31,336 nt of DNA from a virus. Below are positions 2,445-31,230 of this stretch, piece after piece. A model generated the notes under the pieces. That model was not told the DNA's origin and ran no database searches. It saw only the letters and a program-made list of their open reading frames with translations. Both the position numbers and the translations under genes were made by a program. Location of the stretch: positions 1 through 31,336 of IMG/VR virus record IMGVR_UViG_3300032954_000054, one strand, 5' to 3'. Positions within the stretch are counted from its first letter, which is position 1; each line of letters starts with the position of its first letter.

Positions 2445-2675
2445 ATGAATGAAGAACTATTGGCGCGGTTTAGGCATCTCTGCGATGAAAAGAAATGGGT
2501 CATTCCGCGAGAACATCAGGAAACTATAGTGCAATTTCTCACGGCGGACACCCTCCCCAAGAAAGAAGTTGCGAGGGTGATTGAGGAGACAATTCAAAAG
2601 GAGCGTTATTCGGGCGCGCCGCATGCTTTGAATGTGCTCTCCAAAGCACTCGGGCTGGGGGAAGAAAGTGTATGA
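2445..2675 (+). CDS. Hypothetical phage protein, 76 aa
   Basis: This 76-residue helical protein starts MNEELLARFRHLCDEKKW and contains amphipathic segments (VARVIEETIQKER). It starts 15 nt after the upstream stop, and its own stop overlaps the next gene as ATGA (2672-2675). No family is recognised. Confidence 0.65.
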   Translation: MNEELLARFRHLCDEKKWVIPREHQETIVQFLTADTLPKKEVARVIEETIQKERYSGAPHALNVLSKALGLGEESV

Positions 2676-2803
2676 GCGAAAATCACAAACACACATGGGT
2701 TGCGCCAAGTCGGGGGAGCTACAACCGCATTCACTCAAATTTGGAGTGTTCGCAGTGTCACGCGACCAAGAAATATAGTATTTACCAAAAGAACTATAAC
2801 TGA
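2672..2803 (+). CDS. Very small Cys/His protein, 43 aa
   Basis: This is a 43-codon frame beginning with an ATGA overlap. The product is MSENHKHTWVAPSRGSYNRI and onward, with a CSQC pair near residues 26-29 plus several histidines, so it could be a minimal zinc-binding knuckle. An alternative 80-aa frame from 2700 to 2942 reads across this gene and the next. I prefer the two short genes because of the ATGA coupling here and the clean membrane segment in the next. Confidence 0.5.
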   Translation: MSENHKHTWVAPSRGSYNRIHSNLECSQCHATKKYSIYQKNYN

Positions 2804-2811
2804 CGGAGGGT

Positions 2812-2958
2812 ATGGAGAAACTTATCGGGCAAGCCTTCTTGGGATTCGCAATCGCCTACGCGCTATTTCTGCCTATCGGTCTGATAGAGTGGGCGCGGGA
2901 TTCTCTGATAAAAAGTCCGTGCGTTTATTCAGCTTCAACTAGCGTCTGTACCCTATGA
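2812..2958 (+). CDS. Single-span small membrane protein, 48 aa
   Basis: This 48-residue product has one hydrophobic segment (AFLGFAIAYALFLPIGLIEW, about residues 8-27) followed by a charged tail. A GGAGGG sits just upstream of the ATG, closer than ideal for a ribosome binding site. The stop forms an ATGA overlap with the gene at 2955. A tiny membrane protein in an early phage block could act in superinfection exclusion or regulation, but no sequence family supports that. Confidence 0.55.
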   Translation: MEKLIGQAFLGFAIAYALFLPIGLIEWARDSLIKSPCVYSASTSVCTL

Positions 2959-3179
2959 ACCCCAACAAAAACACTCCGAAATCAGGATATGGAAATCTAA
3001 CGAACTTTATTCGGTTTTCCCGAGTGATTATGATTGAACACCAGGAGGGCGACGGGACGGAGGAAAATCCTCTCCGAGCTATCCGGACATTTTTTACTCC
3101 CGAAGGAGAGTTGTTGAATCGTATAGACCCGTTCAAAAAAGAACAGTTCGATGAAGATACTGGCCATTTTCTCGGCTAA
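2955..3179 (+). CDS. Hypothetical phage protein, 74 aa; last gene of the plus-strand block
   Basis: This 74-residue soluble protein starts MNPNKNTPKSGYGNLTNF and has a C-terminal half rich in Glu and Asp. It starts with an ATGA overlap and ends 6 nt before the hairpin at 3186. It closes the plus-strand block; beyond it the main coding direction changes to minus. No function is recognised. Confidence 0.6.
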   Translation: MNPNKNTPKSGYGNLTNFIRFSRVIMIEHQEGDGTEENPLRAIRTFFTPEGELLNRIDPFKKEQFDEDTGHFLG

Positions 3180-3185
3180 AAAGAA

Positions 3186-3201
3186 GGAGCCAGAAGGCTC
3201 C
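3186..3201 (-). terminator. Rho-independent terminator for the 3201-3401 gene
   Basis: A perfect 6-bp stem GGAGCC/GGCTCC with a 4-nt loop is followed, reading the minus strand, by TTCTTTTT. It overlaps the stop codon of the minus-strand gene. Reading plus, the stem is followed by TAAGCTCG, so it would be a poor terminator for the plus-strand operon. Confidence 0.65.
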
Positions 3202-3401
3202 TAAGCTCGATATCGCTGAAGTTTATCCAGTTCACGAAGGTAGCGGGTGACATAGAGAGGAAGTTCATTCCACCGGAGATACCAGGCATAGTCGCTTTTG
3301 TGGTTTCCCGGAGAAAGAGCCAGTCCGTGCCGTTCCCGGGCTTCTCTGAATATCCCTTCCGCATCTGTGTGACGTAGTTTTGCGGCTTCTTCAAGCGTCA
3401 T
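3201..3401 (-). CDS. Hypothetical small helical protein, 66 aa
   Basis: This 66-residue product begins MTLEEAAKLRHTDAEGIF and contains WYLRWNELPLYVTRYLREL. It looks like a small helical, possibly DNA-binding or regulatory protein, but I recognise no family. It has one of the best ribosome binding sites in the window (GGAGGT, 5 nt before the ATG) and its own -10-like box, and it ends in an intrinsic terminator, so it is probably a single-gene transcript. An overlapping frame at 3176-3394 lacks these signals and is rejected. Confidence 0.65.
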   Translation of the reverse strand: MTLEEAAKLRHTDAEGIFREARERHGLALSPGNHKSDYAWYLRWNELPLYVTRYLRELDKLQRYRA

Positions 3402-3418
3402 AGTACACCTCCGATTTC

Positions 3419-3424
3419 ACTATA
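3419..3424 (-). promoter_or_regulatory. Putative -10 box for the 3201-3401 gene
   Basis: TATAGT on the minus strand lies about 18 nt upstream of the ATG, and the GGAGGT ribosome binding site lies between them. No strong -35 is seen at the usual spacing. It sits back to back with a plus-strand promoter candidate at 3438-3466. Confidence 0.35.
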
Positions 3425-3437
3425 CACTCACTGTCTC

Positions 3438-3466
3438 TTGACGGAGGTAAATTATCCCCTAATTAT
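3438..3466 (+). promoter_or_regulatory. Putative sigma70-type promoter for the candidate RNA at 3473-3595
   Basis: TTGACG (5 of 6 matches to the -35 consensus) is separated by 17 nt from AATTAT (4 of 6 matches to the -10). A transcript would start near 3473 and run into a region with no convincing plus-strand gene but clear RNA secondary structure and a terminator. Confidence 0.45.
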
Positions 3467-3472
3467 GAAAAT

Positions 3473-3595
3473 GGCCGCTCTGAATCGAGAAACGAGAGAC
3501 ACCAAGGATAAGGCGTGCCGCCTCCAATAGTCTCGGACGTCTCGTGAAGGCTCCTTACACAGCTAGGGAGCCTCGGCCTATTTCCAGCCGTTTTT
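3473..3595 (+). ncRNA. Candidate structured small RNA, about 120 nt
   Basis: Between the putative promoter and a U-run, the plus strand can form nested helices: CGAGA (3486-3490) with TCTCG (3540-3544), GAGAC (3496-3500) with GTCTC (3530-3534), and inside them GGCG/CGCC (3512-3522). Two 3' hairpins follow: AGGCTCC/GGAGCCT (3548-3573) and CGGC/GCCG (3574-3590), then five T. No known RNA family is recognised. The only plus-strand frame here is about 21 codons from 3465 and lacks a well-spaced ribosome binding site. The RNA would be antisense to the last codons of the lytic enzyme gene at 3578. Structure was assessed by eye only. Confidence 0.4.
3548..3595 (+). terminator. Double-hairpin terminator of the candidate RNA
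   Basis: A 7-bp hairpin (3548-3573) is followed by a 4-bp GC hairpin (3574-3590) and TTTTT (3591-3595) on the plus strand. On the minus strand there is no U-run after the stems, so the element fits plus-strand termination better. Confidence 0.45.
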
Positions 3596-3991
3596 GACTT
3601 CAATATCGTAGCAATGGAAAGTGTGGGGATTCTTCGCATATTCTTTCGCGGCCCAAGGAATGGCGAATGTCGGGTCCTGTGCTTGTTCCCGCGTTATTTC
3701 GGGATGAGAGGGGATGTTGATTTGTGCCGCGCCCCAACTATCTTCCTTCCCGTTGGGCCCTGTCGGGTCAGGAACCTGACTTTGTATGGCAACATCTTGG
3801 AAATTTCCCGATTCGCAGCTAAGAGTTTTATAAAAGGTTCCATAGTTTATATGTTCATTCTGCGCTGCTGTTTTTATGAGTTCATCAACATCTACAACCT
3901 GCGTAACCTCCTGCGCATGAGCGATTTCAGGAGAAAGAGTGCTACTTACCGGCGCTGTCACTAACGCCAGGAATAGAGCGAAGGGTATTAT
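3578..3991 (-). CDS. Exported lysozyme-fold lytic transglycosylase-like protein; probable AUA start
   Basis: This is a peptidoglycan-cleaving enzyme of the SLT/lysozyme fold. The catalytic Glu lies in TLSCESGNF, followed by a DSWGAAQINI motif and a C-terminal helix WAAKEYAKN. The only standard start is GTG at 3961 (127 aa), but the in-frame codons just upstream encode a hydrophobic run, IIPFALFLALVTAPVSS, leading to AHA-QE, a good signal peptidase site. No ATG, GTG or TTG can include it. An AUA at 3991 overlaps the holin stop as ATAA, mimicking the ATGA junctions used elsewhere. I therefore extend the gene to 3991 (137 aa). The holin lies directly upstream, making a lysis pair. Enzyme class is fairly sure; the start is inferred. 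Confidence 0.7.
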   Translation of the reverse strand: MIPFALFLALVTAPVSSTLSPEIAHAQEVTQVVDVDELIKTAAQNEHINYGTFYKTLSCESGNFQDVAIQSQVPDPTGPNGKEDSWGAAQINIPSHPEITREQAQDPTFAIPWAAKEYAKNPHTFHCYDIEVKNGWK

Positions 3992-4206
3992 ACCTTTCTA
4001 ACCTTGACGGCCCCGAACAGGGCCGCCCCGGTGCTAGCCTTTATGCTTGATTCGACAGCCGAAGCAACCGCCACCACGAGTGAAACCACAAGCGGAGGAA
4101 AGACGCCGGTAAGGTGCGTTGCATCGCTGAAATACGCTGCAATCGCTCCGAACACAACAAGCATAAGACCCTTTAGAAATCCTGATAGTGCTGGACTTAT
4201 TTCCAT
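3988..4206 (-). CDS. Holin-like protein, 72 aa, two membrane spans
   Basis: This 72-residue protein has two hydrophobic segments (about residues 11-27 and 37-55) joined by a short loop, and ends in the basic tail KVRKV. Size, topology and position between two lysozyme-fold genes fit a class II holin, which would permeabilise the inner membrane to time lysis. Sequence alone does not place it in a named holin family. Its TAA stop overlaps the putative AUA start of the downstream enzyme. Confidence 0.65.
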   Translation of the reverse strand: MEISPALSGFLKGLMLVVFGAIAAYFSDATHLTGVFPPLVVSLVVAVASAVESSIKASTGAALFGAVKVRKV

Positions 4207-5633: not shown

Positions 5634-5893
5634 CGTTGTATTGAATGATTTATCACCCACATGACTGCTCCCCCTATCGCAGCGATTGCAATGACAAACG
5701 CCGAAACCCCTACCAAAAACTTCTTTGAAAAGAGGATTCCGTTATAGGCGTCGGTGAGTGGGGCGAGAGCCATAGCGAGGGCATCGACTTTCTTTTCTAC
5801 TCGTTCAATGCTCTCTCGGATTTCAGCGAAGTGCCGTTCATCGTCCTTTGCGTGCTCTTTAAACTGTTCCTGTAGCGTTTCGAGTTCATTCAT
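5630..5893 (-). CDS. Coiled-coil protein with C-terminal membrane span, 87 aa
   Basis: Residues 1-45 are a charged helical coiled coil (ETLQEQFKEHAKDDERHFAEI), followed by a hydrophobic span (FLVGVSAFVIAIAAIGGAVMW) and a short tail. This layout is typical of phage lysis-region membrane proteins, often called holin- or spanin-like, though no specific family is certain. The stop overlaps the peptidase start as ATGA. It is the first minus-strand gene of the lysis module. Confidence 0.65.
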   Translation of the reverse strand: MNELETLQEQFKEHAKDDERHFAEIRESIERVEKKVDALAMALAPLTDAYNGILFSKKFLVGVSAFVIAIAAIGGAVMWVINHSIQR

Positions 5894-13839: not shown

Positions 13840-14652
13840 TTATGTTATCACCCAGTTGCCTATAATTTCCCACCCATATTGCAAGGAGACGAGGATATCT
13901 ATTGAGTTGGGAGAGTAATTCACGATTGTTGCCCTCGCATAGATTGTGTTTGAGGGGTATTCGACAGAAAGTATATGCTCTTCTGTCGTAAGAACATGGG
14001 ACGCAGGTGTTGCGCCAGATTCGTCTGTGGCGAAATACACCCCAGATTGAATGAACTTTTGAACCGGGCCTCCTGTTGCGACAGAACTAGTAGTCTCTGG
14101 TTGGAAATAATAACTTGGGCCAAGTTGGGCATTTCCCATGCAGATTGCCCGCGAAAGAAGGGTCCCCGAATAGTTGGAAAAATTGATGGTATCGTCCCCA
14201 GAGCCAGATACTTTGTGAAGAGTCCCAGAAGAACCTGGATTTGCTAAGCCGCCACTATTCCCCGGCCCCCATGTCACCATTGTAGTAGTAGTAGGAGCTA
14301 TATTTGTCCTAACCTGGTAAATAAATCCATTTGAGGACTGGTAAACCGCTCCAGCGGATGCAGTAGTCGTATCGTCAACAGTAAAATCAGTTTCCCATTT
14401 TATTGCTTCTCCCATAAGCTGAACCGCAATAGCGTTGAACGTAATTCCTAGTGTATAGGTCTGTCCATCCGTAGCCATTTCTATATTTCCCATAGCCCGA
14501 ACCTGGGGAATGATGTTCTGTTGAGATATCTTTGGACTATCTATATCGTTATGTATGTGTCTTTGAGTAGGATTCTGACTAAAACGCCCAGCAGAGCCAG
14601 CTCTACGTATTTCCTCCCGCACTATTTGCCTAATTTGTGCTTCGTTATTCAT
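13840..14652 (-). CDS. Virion-associated protein, possible tail or decoration component, 270 aa
   Basis: This 270-residue protein starts with a basic helix (AQIRQIVREEIRRAGSAGRF), then a HIHNDIDSPKI motif (H-x-H-N-x-x-D-S-P) found in small phage virion proteins I associate with Patescibacteria viruses. The rest is beta-rich and Thr/Ser/Gly rich. The design, a short helical attachment region plus a beta domain, suggests a tail-attached or decoration protein. It starts 3 nt after the nozzle-like gene's stop. No enzyme motif. Confidence 0.55.
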   Translation of the reverse strand: MNNEAQIRQIVREEIRRAGSAGRFSQNPTQRHIHNDIDSPKISQQNIIPQVRAMGNIEMATDGQTYTLGITFNAIAVQLMGEAIKWETDFTVDDTTTASAGAVYQSSNGFIYQVRTNIAPTTTTMVTWGPGNSGGLANPGSSGTLHKVSGSGDDTINFSNYSGTLLSRAICMGNAQLGPSYYFQPETTSSVATGGPVQKFIQSGVYFATDESGATPASHVLTTEEHILSVEYPSNTIYARATIVNYSPNSIDILVSLQYGWEIIGNWVIT

Positions 14653-22037: not shown

Positions 22038-22854
22038 CCGATATCCAATTTGTTACTCCGCACTTCTGCGGGGGAACACCGCTTCGGATGTTCCTCTTAC
22101 GATTTATGTTCTCGTAAGTTCAGACTGTAGCATCGCTCTTTTTGAGCGTCCCCTCACTCAGTCGTTCAGGCTGCGATAAATGCTTTTTACTTTGCAAGTT
22201 AGTATGAAAAGAAAGACGTATATCCTTTTTCAAGTCCATGATTTTCTGCATCATTTCTTCGCGGAGAGCGATTTCGTGGTCGCTTACCATGAGTGGATTG
22301 AGTTGACCAAGTGCGTTTCTATTTCCCGTAAGACGTTCCTTATTTCCATTTGTCAGACGTTCTTGGAAACGAATTGCTATCTGTGCTTGTTCGCGTTTGT
22401 ACACAAGAAACGGCTCTATCTTTTTCAAGAGGTCGCCAGCTTTCTTTGCTCGTAGAGTCCATTCATGGATGAAGTTTCCTTGCCTCCGATGATGGTCAAA
22501 ATGAGCATGTACACTTCCACCGAAGTTCCCAAAGAGCCAATCCATTATCCTCCCATCCTTTTGAGTGATGATGATGGATACGTTATGGCCTTTGTAACGA
22601 GGGTTACGTTCTTTTCCGGTATTGTGCCGTATGGAAATACAGCCATCACCATCAAGAAGTCCTGCAAGATATGCGTACTTGGCCTGATTATCTTTCTTCA
22701 TGCAACCAATGTTATCAGTTGCATACTAACCTGTCAAAGAGCTTTTAGCTTGCCGGGAGTTCCCAATTTCAGGGTTCTCCGTATCAGAGGGGATTTTTCG
22801 ATTTACGCCAGTATCAAGTCTTTTACTTGAATGGGCGATAGCTGAGCCGACAAT
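22038..22854 (-). mobile_element. Group I intron with homing endonuclease inside the major capsid gene
   Basis: Core helices can be traced on the minus strand. P1: exon GAGU (22858-22855) with GCUC (22847-22844), ending in a U-G pair. P3: UCCCCUC (22793-22787) with GAGGGGA (22155-22149), 7 bp. P4: CGGAG (22781-22777) with CUCCCG (22759-22754). P5: CCC/GGG (22774-22762). P7: GACU (22163-22160) with AGUC (22126-22123). P8: CGCUC/GAGCG (22148-22134). P9-type hairpins lie at 22118-22096, 22094-22073 and 22071-22058. The last base is G. The 5' site could instead follow 22852 or 22840. Splicing restores one capsid frame of 344 codons including stop. Confidence 0.85.
22120..22701 (-). CDS. LAGLIDADG homing endonuclease encoded in the intron, 193 aa
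   Basis: It carries one LAGLIDADG motif, LAGLLDGDG at residues 12-20, preceded by the usual KYAY helix and followed by CISI. Single-motif members of about 160-200 residues act as homodimers that cut an intronless allele and drive intron spread; some also help splicing. The two conserved acidic residues (Asp17 and Asp19) are present. The gene starts inside the P6-side loop. Its last dozen codons overlap the P7, P3 and P8 strands, ending in a TGA just after the P7 AGUC. It is intact, so the element may still be mobile. Confidence 0.9.
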   Translation of the reverse strand: MKKDNQAKYAYLAGLLDGDGCISIRHNTGKERNPRYKGHNVSIIITQKDGRIMDWLFGNFGGSVHAHFDHHRRQGNFIHEWTLRAKKAGDLLKKIEPFLVYKREQAQIAIRFQERLTNGNKERLTGNRNALGQLNPLMVSDHEIALREEMMQKIMDLKKDIRLSFHTNLQSKKHLSQPERLSEGTLKKSDATV

Positions 22855-29248: not shown

Positions 29249-30814
29249 TTAGCGGTATTTCTGCTCGTGTTCGAGAGGTACGATGGTGCTGCAATTAAGA
29301 ACCGTTCCGGCGACTGATATTGCTGCTTTTATGGCGTTTTTTGGCACGTCTGCGGCATCGTAGATTCCTTGTTTTTCTAGTTCTTCCCAATCTATATCAC
29401 AGCCGTTTTGGATGATTTGGGTGGTTGGGGCTTGGAGCGCGACTCTAAGGATAGGATTATCTATCGCTTCTGCCGCCTTGGTGAGGACGTAGCCACCGCC
29501 GAGGACAACTCCGCCCTTGAGAGCCATCTTTGCGGCGTTCTTTGCGTCCTCGAACTTAAGACGCTTGTACGTGAGTTCTACTTCGCTTCTTGCTCCCATT
29601 TTTACTACCGCTGCCTTTGAGTTAAGCCATTCCACCCGCTTTTCGTACTCCTGATGGTCGAAGGCTGCTTCTTTGAGGGTTGCTATGTAATCTGTGAGGT
29701 CTTTGGTGCCGATTACGTCGGTTGAGCCGCGTTTGATGATAAGTTTCTCTGCGAAACCGAGCCATGAGAGGGACGCGCCGCCCTTGAACTGTGCCTGAAG
29801 TCCCGCTCCGAAGATAGTTGCTCCAGTCATATACGCGAAGTCCTCGTATATCCAGTCTTTCCATAGGGTTGGTGCACGAAGGACAATAACCCGGAACTGT
29901 TTAGCGGGCTGACCGAACTTGTCTATGCCGAGACCCGTGAGTTCTATCTCCGCAAGAGCTATGGGGTCTATGTCGTCGCAGAACAAGACCATCTCCTTTA
30001 TTCCATTTCTAAGAAGTCCTGAGACATATGGCTCAAGCTGGGAGGAATTGCTTATCTTCTCTGCACTAATGAGGATGTGGGCGTCGTTGACGATGATTCT
30101 ATCTCCCTTCCGTGGGTCGTTTACTGGTCCTTGACCATTTGCGTTTATGAAAGTGGGATGGATGAAGCCAACGCCTCGAAGCTCCACGCCATCCTTAATT
30201 TCATAAGTAGTACCGTCGTGCGGTGCCGGTTCCCAGGAAATAACTCCCTCCTTGCCTATCTTCTGGTATATTTCTCCGATTAATTTGCCCATTTCCTTAT
30301 CCTGTGCAGAGGTCGCGGCAACTTTCCATACATCTTCCGGTTTCACTTCCTGAGTAAGTTTGTCTATGGATTCAAGAACCATAGGGAGACAGGCATTCAA
30401 TTCTGCCTTAAAGTCGGTAGTGGTTTCCGCATACTTCATGCCCTCCTTGAGGATTGCTGCCGTGAGGATGCATGTAGTGGTGGAGCCATCGCCGGATTCC
30501 TTGTTTGCCCGGCCGATAGATTCTTTAAGGATATTTGCACCCATATTCTCATAGGGGTCAGCACACTTCACTTTTTCCGCTATGGAAGCACCATCATTCG
30601 TACTGATGGAATAAGGCCATTCAAATGCGCCAAGTAGGGCATCACGACCCTTTGCGCCTATGGTAGGGGCTATCGCCGCATTGACCGCGTTCACGCCCCG
30701 TATAAGGGCTTCGCGGGCCTCAGAACCCTTTAGGTAGTTCACGCTTGGTACGATGTTCAAATCGGAACCGGGGATGGAATTGTTGGATTGTTTCACGCTG
30801 GTGGTGGAGTCCAT
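29249..30814 (-). CDS. groEL: Phage-encoded GroEL-type group I chaperonin, about 521 aa
   Basis: The full chaperonin layout is present. The N-terminal equatorial part has TIGAKGR (51-57; TLGPKGR in E. coli) and GDGSTTT (108-114; ATP-binding GDGTTT). The apical domain includes FINANGQ and KISNSSQLEPYVSGL, and the C-terminal equatorial part has FEDAKNAAKMALKGGVVLGGG, keeping the catalytic Asp (about 423). The usual GGM-rich tail is absent; it ends EHEQKYR. It would form an ATP-driven folding ring with the adjacent GroES, likely serving capsid or tail proteins. The start is uncertain: ATG at 30814 (38 nt after GroES) or 30886 (545 aa, overlapping GroES). Confidence 0.9.
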   Translation of the reverse strand: MDSTTSVKQSNNSIPGSDLNIVPSVNYLKGSEAREALIRGVNAVNAAIAPTIGAKGRDALLGAFEWPYSISTNDGASIAEKVKCADPYENMGANILKESIGRANKESGDGSTTTCILTAAILKEGMKYAETTTDFKAELNACLPMVLESIDKLTQEVKPEDVWKVAATSAQDKEMGKLIGEIYQKIGKEGVISWEPAPHDGTTYEIKDGVELRGVGFIHPTFINANGQGPVNDPRKGDRIIVNDAHILISAEKISNSSQLEPYVSGLLRNGIKEMVLFCDDIDPIALAEIELTGLGIDKFGQPAKQFRVIVLRAPTLWKDWIYEDFAYMTGATIFGAGLQAQFKGGASLSWLGFAEKLIIKRGSTDVIGTKDLTDYIATLKEAAFDHQEYEKRVEWLNSKAAVVKMGARSEVELTYKRLKFEDAKNAAKMALKGGVVLGGGYVLTKAAEAIDNPILRVALQAPTTQIIQNGCDIDWEELEKQGIYDAADVPKNAIKAAISVAGTVLNCSTIVPLEHEQKYR

Positions 30815-30852
30815 AGATATCTGCGGGGGTTGAATTGTGGGTAAATAGCTTC

Positions 30853-31230
30853 TTATTGCACCGGAGGCACCTCTCCAAGATTCCATTGTCCGTTTGCAGT
30901 ACCAGTCTGTACTGATGTAGGTAGCCTTTCCTTTTGCAGAGGCTCTGGGGTGATATGTTCATCATCTTGTGTTTTACCTATAAACCAAATACCATCGCCC
31001 CGGGTATCTACCGCGAAAATCTCCTTTCCTTCGTGCTCGAAGCGTCGGTAGGCGTATTCGTCATAGAATACAATGTCTCCTTCTTTCCAGCCCATTTCTC
31101 GAAGAAAGTCCTTTTCCCGTATATAGACTATCTTTGCCGCGTTTGTATAGTCCCTACCCGTCGTCTGCATTACAGAGTCGTCCTTGATGGGTTCTACCAG
31201 CACTACACCCGGCATTGGAATAAATCGCAT
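30853..31230 (-). CDS. groES: GroES-like co-chaperonin, 125 aa
   Basis: The N terminus RFIPMPGVVLVEPIKDD corresponds to the first strands of GroES, and GDIVFYDEYAYRRFEHEGKE followed by FAVDTRGDGIWFI to its C-terminal strands. The middle (TTGRDYTNAAKIVYIREKDF) would contain the mobile loop but is not a close match to bacterial ones. A tail of about 35 extra residues after the fold is unusual; GroES is normally about 95 residues. It would cap the GroEL ring encoded next, and probably co-evolved with it. The start is 2 nt after the upstream stop. Confidence 0.8.
   Translation of the reverse strand: MRFIPMPGVVLVEPIKDDSVMQTTGRDYTNAAKIVYIREKDFLREMGWKEGDIVFYDEYAYRRFEHEGKEIFAVDTRGDGIWFIGKTQDDEHITPEPLQKERLPTSVQTGTANGQWNLGEVPPVQ

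Follow-up and report, generated by a model that had tools for sequence, protein, structure and literature searches.

The major capsid gene in the DNA analysed here, a 31,336-base IMG/VR virus record referred to as the window, is almost certainly interrupted at codon 123/124 by a mobile group I intron that carries a homing endonuclease gene and would fold and splice to give a 344-residue protein. The intron lies on the minus strand at 22859-22046, is 814 nt long, inserts in phase 0 and ends with its terminal G (omega-G) at 22046, as placed by junction ranking, covariation, a covariance model and tests of P1 and P2. A first-pass annotation of the same DNA had proposed a group I intron in this gene, and the proposal is now strongly backed by intronless relatives, covariation within the core and a covariance-model match.

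In the proposed mechanism, the intron RNA would fold and a guanosine would attack after U22860, whereupon the exons would be ligated and a normal 344-residue capsid protein made. The endonuclease is probably transcribed from its own promoter within the intron and, acting as an I-CreI-like homodimer, would cut an intronless capsid gene so that the intron is copied into it. The simplest view of the element is as a selfish hitchhiker in a gene that is both essential and conserved. The first-pass annotation had also regarded splicing as a step at which capsid production is controlled; a retained intron would then act as a switch for capsid amount. In favour, unspliced RNA would yield only a 141-residue fragment, but most relatives lack the intron and the closely similar capsid intron of mycobacteriophage LittleE is described as efficiently spliced (PMC3706429). 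A role in capsid control is speculation, and an unlikely one.

The evidence for an interrupted gene begins with the coding sequence. On the minus strand of the window, two open frames flank an ORF of 193 residues. The upstream frame (23228-22803) matches the major head protein phrog_9953 over profile positions 12-130 (E=5e-12), while the downstream frame (22063-21380) matches the same family over positions 130-328 (E=2e-23). Since the halves cover adjoining positions of the profile, the capsid gene is split and not duplicated; the earlier description of two capsid blocks, neither of them complete, was correct. In groundwater phage MW202566, the homologous capsid protein is encoded by one unbroken gene in which the halves join at 14414-14416, and at least 65 relatives have the same capsid gene unbroken. 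Viral contigs queried with capsid exon 2 alone or with the endonuclease alone gave no matches; relatives were obtained instead via a terminase search and capsid alignment, which supplied many contigs with an intact capsid at 51-63% identity to the spliced protein. It could be argued that each ORF encodes a capsid protein of its own, translated independently, as both frames are open on the same strand and ORF finders assign a GTG start to the second. However, that GTG (22063) falls inside the P9 region of the intron, the halves span adjoining parts of what is a single HK97-type profile, and the 65 relatives have one continuous gene. Independent translation of two proteins is thus very improbable.

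Between the exons, the pairings of a group I core can be traced on the minus strand. P3 is formed by the 5' strand UCCCCUC (22793-22787) and GAGGGGA (22155-22149). P4 and P5 occupy 22780-22754, with GGAG (22780-22777) paired to CUCC and CCC (22774-22772) paired to GGG (22764-22762), respectively. The 3' side of P6, GCAGCC (22174-22169), pairs with GGCAAGC around 22754-22748, and the P6 motif GGCAAGC...GCAGCCUGAACGACU is common to the window intron and compact members of its family. P7 spans 22163-22123, pairing GACUG (22163-22159) with CAGUC (22127-22123), and encloses both the 3' strand of P3 and P8, in which CGCUC (22148-22144) pairs with GAGCG (22138-22134). P3 and P7, knotted around P8, are both found in the window and covary across the family. 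P8, P9 and P9.1 are placed by the covariance model, and P4-P6 solely by sequence alignment to the compact members. The entire 3' domain (P7-P9) runs from 22176 to 22047 and ends one base before the 3' end of the intron. P3, P7 and P8 agree with the pairings originally described, which are borne out by sequence, family covariation and the covariance model alike.

The covariation figures depend slightly on how the introns were gathered, with a pattern that fixes P7 GACT and AGTC and contains neither P3 nor the fifth P7 pair; all seven pairs of P3 considered, 90% are standard pairs across 111 introns versus 65% with partners shuffled (the maximum of 1000 shuffles being 69%), and the fifth P7 pair is A-U in 98, G-C in 26 and U-A in 14 of 141 introns (138/141). 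For the 3' domain, a covariance model, R1, was built from 34 other introns with the window left out. It matches the window with 99.5 bits (E=2.8e-26), ending one base short of the predicted terminal G, and also matches ten further known or suspected introns, eight of which lie in capsid genes of the window's phage group. No match to R1 was found in the intronless relatives included in the scan. No usable group I match came from Rfam scans of the window, a narrow region and the related loci L010 and L044, or from a gathering scan that covered 13 loci; this negative is uninformative because the same search misses the T4 td and nrdB introns that served as a positive control. The covariance search suggested at the outset was silent with the Rfam model RF00028 and positive with R1. 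The predicted group I core is regarded as real.

The exact insertion in the window has been seen in one copy only, as might be the case for a dead or degenerate intron or for an assembly error that breaks the capsid gene. Against both, the core pairings, the wobble pair of P1, the terminal G and the endonuclease frame are all intact, and homologous introns are present in the capsid genes of many unrelated contigs. Neither decay nor misassembly is at all likely.

The intron ends were located by taking all 4002 pairs of positions that keep one open frame and scoring the products with an HMM built from 61 different relatives that lack the intron. U22860/G22046 ranks first of the 4002 at 538.3 bits, and the runner-up among pairs with U before the intron and G at its end reaches 531.5 bits. 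With the phrog_9953 matches, this ranking defines exon 1 as 23228-22860 (minus strand; 123 codons, the last being GCA GCC GAT) and exon 2 as 22045-21380 (minus strand; first codons GAT ATC GGC AAC, 221 codons plus stop), with a predicted spliced junction of ...GCAGCCGAT/GATATCGGC.... At the junction, close relatives align as (A/S)DD-x-G, which the product ...AADDIGNML matches. The first-pass annotation had placed the 5' splice site after U22855 (5 nt off) and the last intron base at G22038 (8 nt off), giving an intron of 22854-22038. A real group I intron with those ends would keep one frame too, but next to no weight can be given to it: the pair ranks 206th of 4002 at 524.8 bits, its product ...AADRVNML is one residue short of the relatives at a conserved motif, and the 3' end motif GAGTAACAAANTTG, conserved in relatives, places the terminal G at 22046. 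Splicing does restore one reading frame as had been claimed; its length is 344 amino acids plus stop (345 codons), not 344 codons including the stop. The alignment of intronless capsid relatives, which had been recommended as a means of fixing the junction, has done so at U22860/G22046. At the level of sequence, the insertion at codon 123/124 and its exact predicted ends can be considered shown.

The junction was derived first, and independently, from the protein relatives, and P1 was located afterwards. Spanning 22866-22845, P1 comprises 7 bp between exon nucleotides AGCCGAU (22866-22860) and an internal guide, GUCGGCU (22851-22845), ending at the splice site in a U22860.G22851 wobble. Among shuffled introns, 0.4% of trials give a P1 this long (p about 0.004), and the fold of the P1-P2 region has z=-3.8 relative to shuffles. 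The P2 hairpin (22837-22806), identified in the same fold test, is followed by an in-frame stop UAA (22805-22803) ahead of P3. From the sequence, a possible P10 would join GUAUU (22856-22852) to the start of exon 2, GAUAU (22045-22041), through five pairs of which two are G.U.

Turning to the endonuclease, the ORF of 193 amino acids (22701-22120, minus strand; motif LAGLLDGDG) sits in the P6 loop, and P3', P8 and P7' overlap its 3' end. It had been called a LAGLIDADG gene, and its match to PF00961 (25.9 bits) is above the curated cut-off with a single LAGLIDADG motif. Residues 5-119 match I-CreI chains with E about 2e-5. The ORF resembles the I-CreI family in its single motif but differs by an extra C-terminal part that overlaps the intron core. 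Enzymes of the I-CreI type work as homodimers on near-palindromic sites. When the flanks are joined (GATGCAGCCGATGATATCGGCAACATG), the empty site GATGCAGCCGAT-GAT-ATCGGCAACATG is a near palindrome in which 9/12 arm positions agree, a score that just two of the 1000 positions tested attain. Such a site is compatible with homodimer action, though no proof of it.

A sigma-70-like candidate promoter for the endonuclease is found at 22735-22702 on the minus strand and consists of TTGACA, 17 nt, TAACAT, 7 nt and the ATG, which is a leaderless layout. A -10-like hexamer stands 6-8 nt ahead of the ATG in all nine intron endonuclease genes examined in the phage group, the starts including 22702-22735 of the window and those of L010, L209, L210, L231, L238, L241 and L245. 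These boxes suggest transcripts that begin at the start codon from leaderless promoters inside the introns. Across the wider family, a scan for such promoters was obscured by noise, host exons being mixed in. As a separate observation, a Shine-Dalgarno-like motif was seen in only one of 24 other window genes examined, a scarcity that suggests a host that starts translation without them.

The window intron has relatives both in its own phage group and beyond. L010 bears a homologous intron at a different site of the same capsid gene (codon 51) and shares with the window intron the end motif ATCCGAAGCGG...GAGTAACAAANTTG and the P1 guide GUCG; a pattern built from the end motif of these two introns led to an ORF-less copy in L044. 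The core pattern is present in at least 120 viral contigs. In L209 and L210, the endonuclease gene is near the 5' end of the intron, and no P1 was found near the 5' splice site. Besides codon 123, the capsid family of the window is split near codons 20-22, 28 and 50, and L241/L242 have two introns within one capsid gene. When the same test was applied to three genes, splits were found in 10 of 95 capsid loci, 0 of 104 terminase loci and 0 of 107 portal loci, counts that are non-independent since overlapping copies of one contig are included among the loci.

In the wider intron family, 30 downstream exons were sampled at even spacing from viral contigs (exons of at least 60 residues, with related phages kept in). 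Of these, 18 are major head proteins, which fall into three PHROGs (1357, 283, 2522); the others are two tape measures, one each of terminase, portal, ribonucleotide reductase and endonuclease VII, and six that are unassigned, so that major capsids make up 18 of the 24 assignable host genes. The balance tips slightly towards a large, poorly catalogued family of phage group I introns specialised on major capsid genes. Such a family may have invaded unrelated capsid families repeatedly and at several codons in each, in some cases placing two or more introns in one gene, and its endonucleases would vary in type (LAGLIDADG, HNH or none). No report of such a capsid preference was found in the open-licence literature.

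Several loci deserve separate mention. In L231, L239, L232 and the first intron of L241, the same capsid gene is interrupted by introns with another core (e.g. GATGATATGACCTGA) and HNH/NUMOD-like endonucleases; given the different cores, more than one intron lineage uses the capsid gene. L118, L133, L081, L068 and L089 each have three to four family introns within a few kb of one contig, several of them in capsid-like exons. In L239, at about 5680-5760, the capsid frame ...TTTNQYL meets an in-frame TAG and resumes some 43 nt later with GCACCAGCGTGGGTAGAC (APAWVD). This gap is far too short to be an intron, and an intron of normal size lies a few codons downstream; an assembly error might explain the gap, as might a bypassed stretch of the T4 gene 60 type.

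Among the known systems, the T4 td intron has its endonuclease ORF in the P6 region, as does the window intron, and R1 gives a weak match to the 3' domain of T4 nrdB (17.2 bits, E=0.085). The two T4 introns, which belong to group IA, differ from that of the window in interrupting other host genes and in having endonucleases annotated as GIY-YIG and HNH. Group IA introns have P7.1/P7.2; in the window intron, only 4 nt separate P7 from P3', and therefore there is no room for these elements. Another parallel is mycobacteriophage LittleE, in which an 819-bp group I intron with a LAGLIDADG-like frame occupies the major capsid gene and splicing has been demonstrated by RT-PCR and virion protein (PMC3706429). 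The two have in common a capsid insertion of about 819 bp, an exon 1 ending in U, an intron ending in G and intronless relatives; LittleE differs in having the endonuclease frame on the opposite strand, in its unrelated phage and capsid, and in that splicing was shown there. In lactococcal phage Tuc2009, as cited in PMC3706429, a capsid subunit gene contains a group I intron, a likeness to the window by citation and not by sequence. In Jug phages, short group I introns are numerous in phage genes, and some of these introns are spliced in metatranscriptomes; compared by description only, these are unlike the window intron in residing mainly in terL, nrdD and DNA polymerase (PMC12363816). With the capsid introns of LittleE and Tuc2009 and intron-rich phages already known, the window intron belongs to a known kind.

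As host, candidate phyla radiation (CPR) bacteria had been put forward, an assignment without direct support: the capsid family matches just two MAG contigs in 84,980 genomes, one of them labelled Hydrogenedentes. With 29% identity over exon 2, the capsid of a TM7 phage is only distantly related, and a search for literature on introns in CPR or Saccharibacteria phages returned nothing relevant.

The window thus offers a well-defined mobile intron that occupies the most abundant virion gene of a phage not yet cultivated. More weight attaches to the wider pattern: capsid introns occur at no fewer than four positions in the phage group versus none in terminase or portal, and most of the homologous introns from elsewhere likewise interrupt capsid genes. 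It raises the question of why selfish introns would favour the capsid gene. Gene callers report a capsid split in this way as a pair of 'coat proteins' or 'hypothetical proteins', and capsid-based phage surveys will therefore miscount these phages. One example is L247 (MW202674.1), where the exons of an intron-split gene at 2629-4144 are annotated as two 'P22 coat proteins' and R1 matches the gap between them with 122 bits. Elsewhere in the window, a small ORF that appears GroES-like by eye, without a family match, lies directly upstream of a phage-encoded GroEL (29249-31230; phrog_5725, PF00118).
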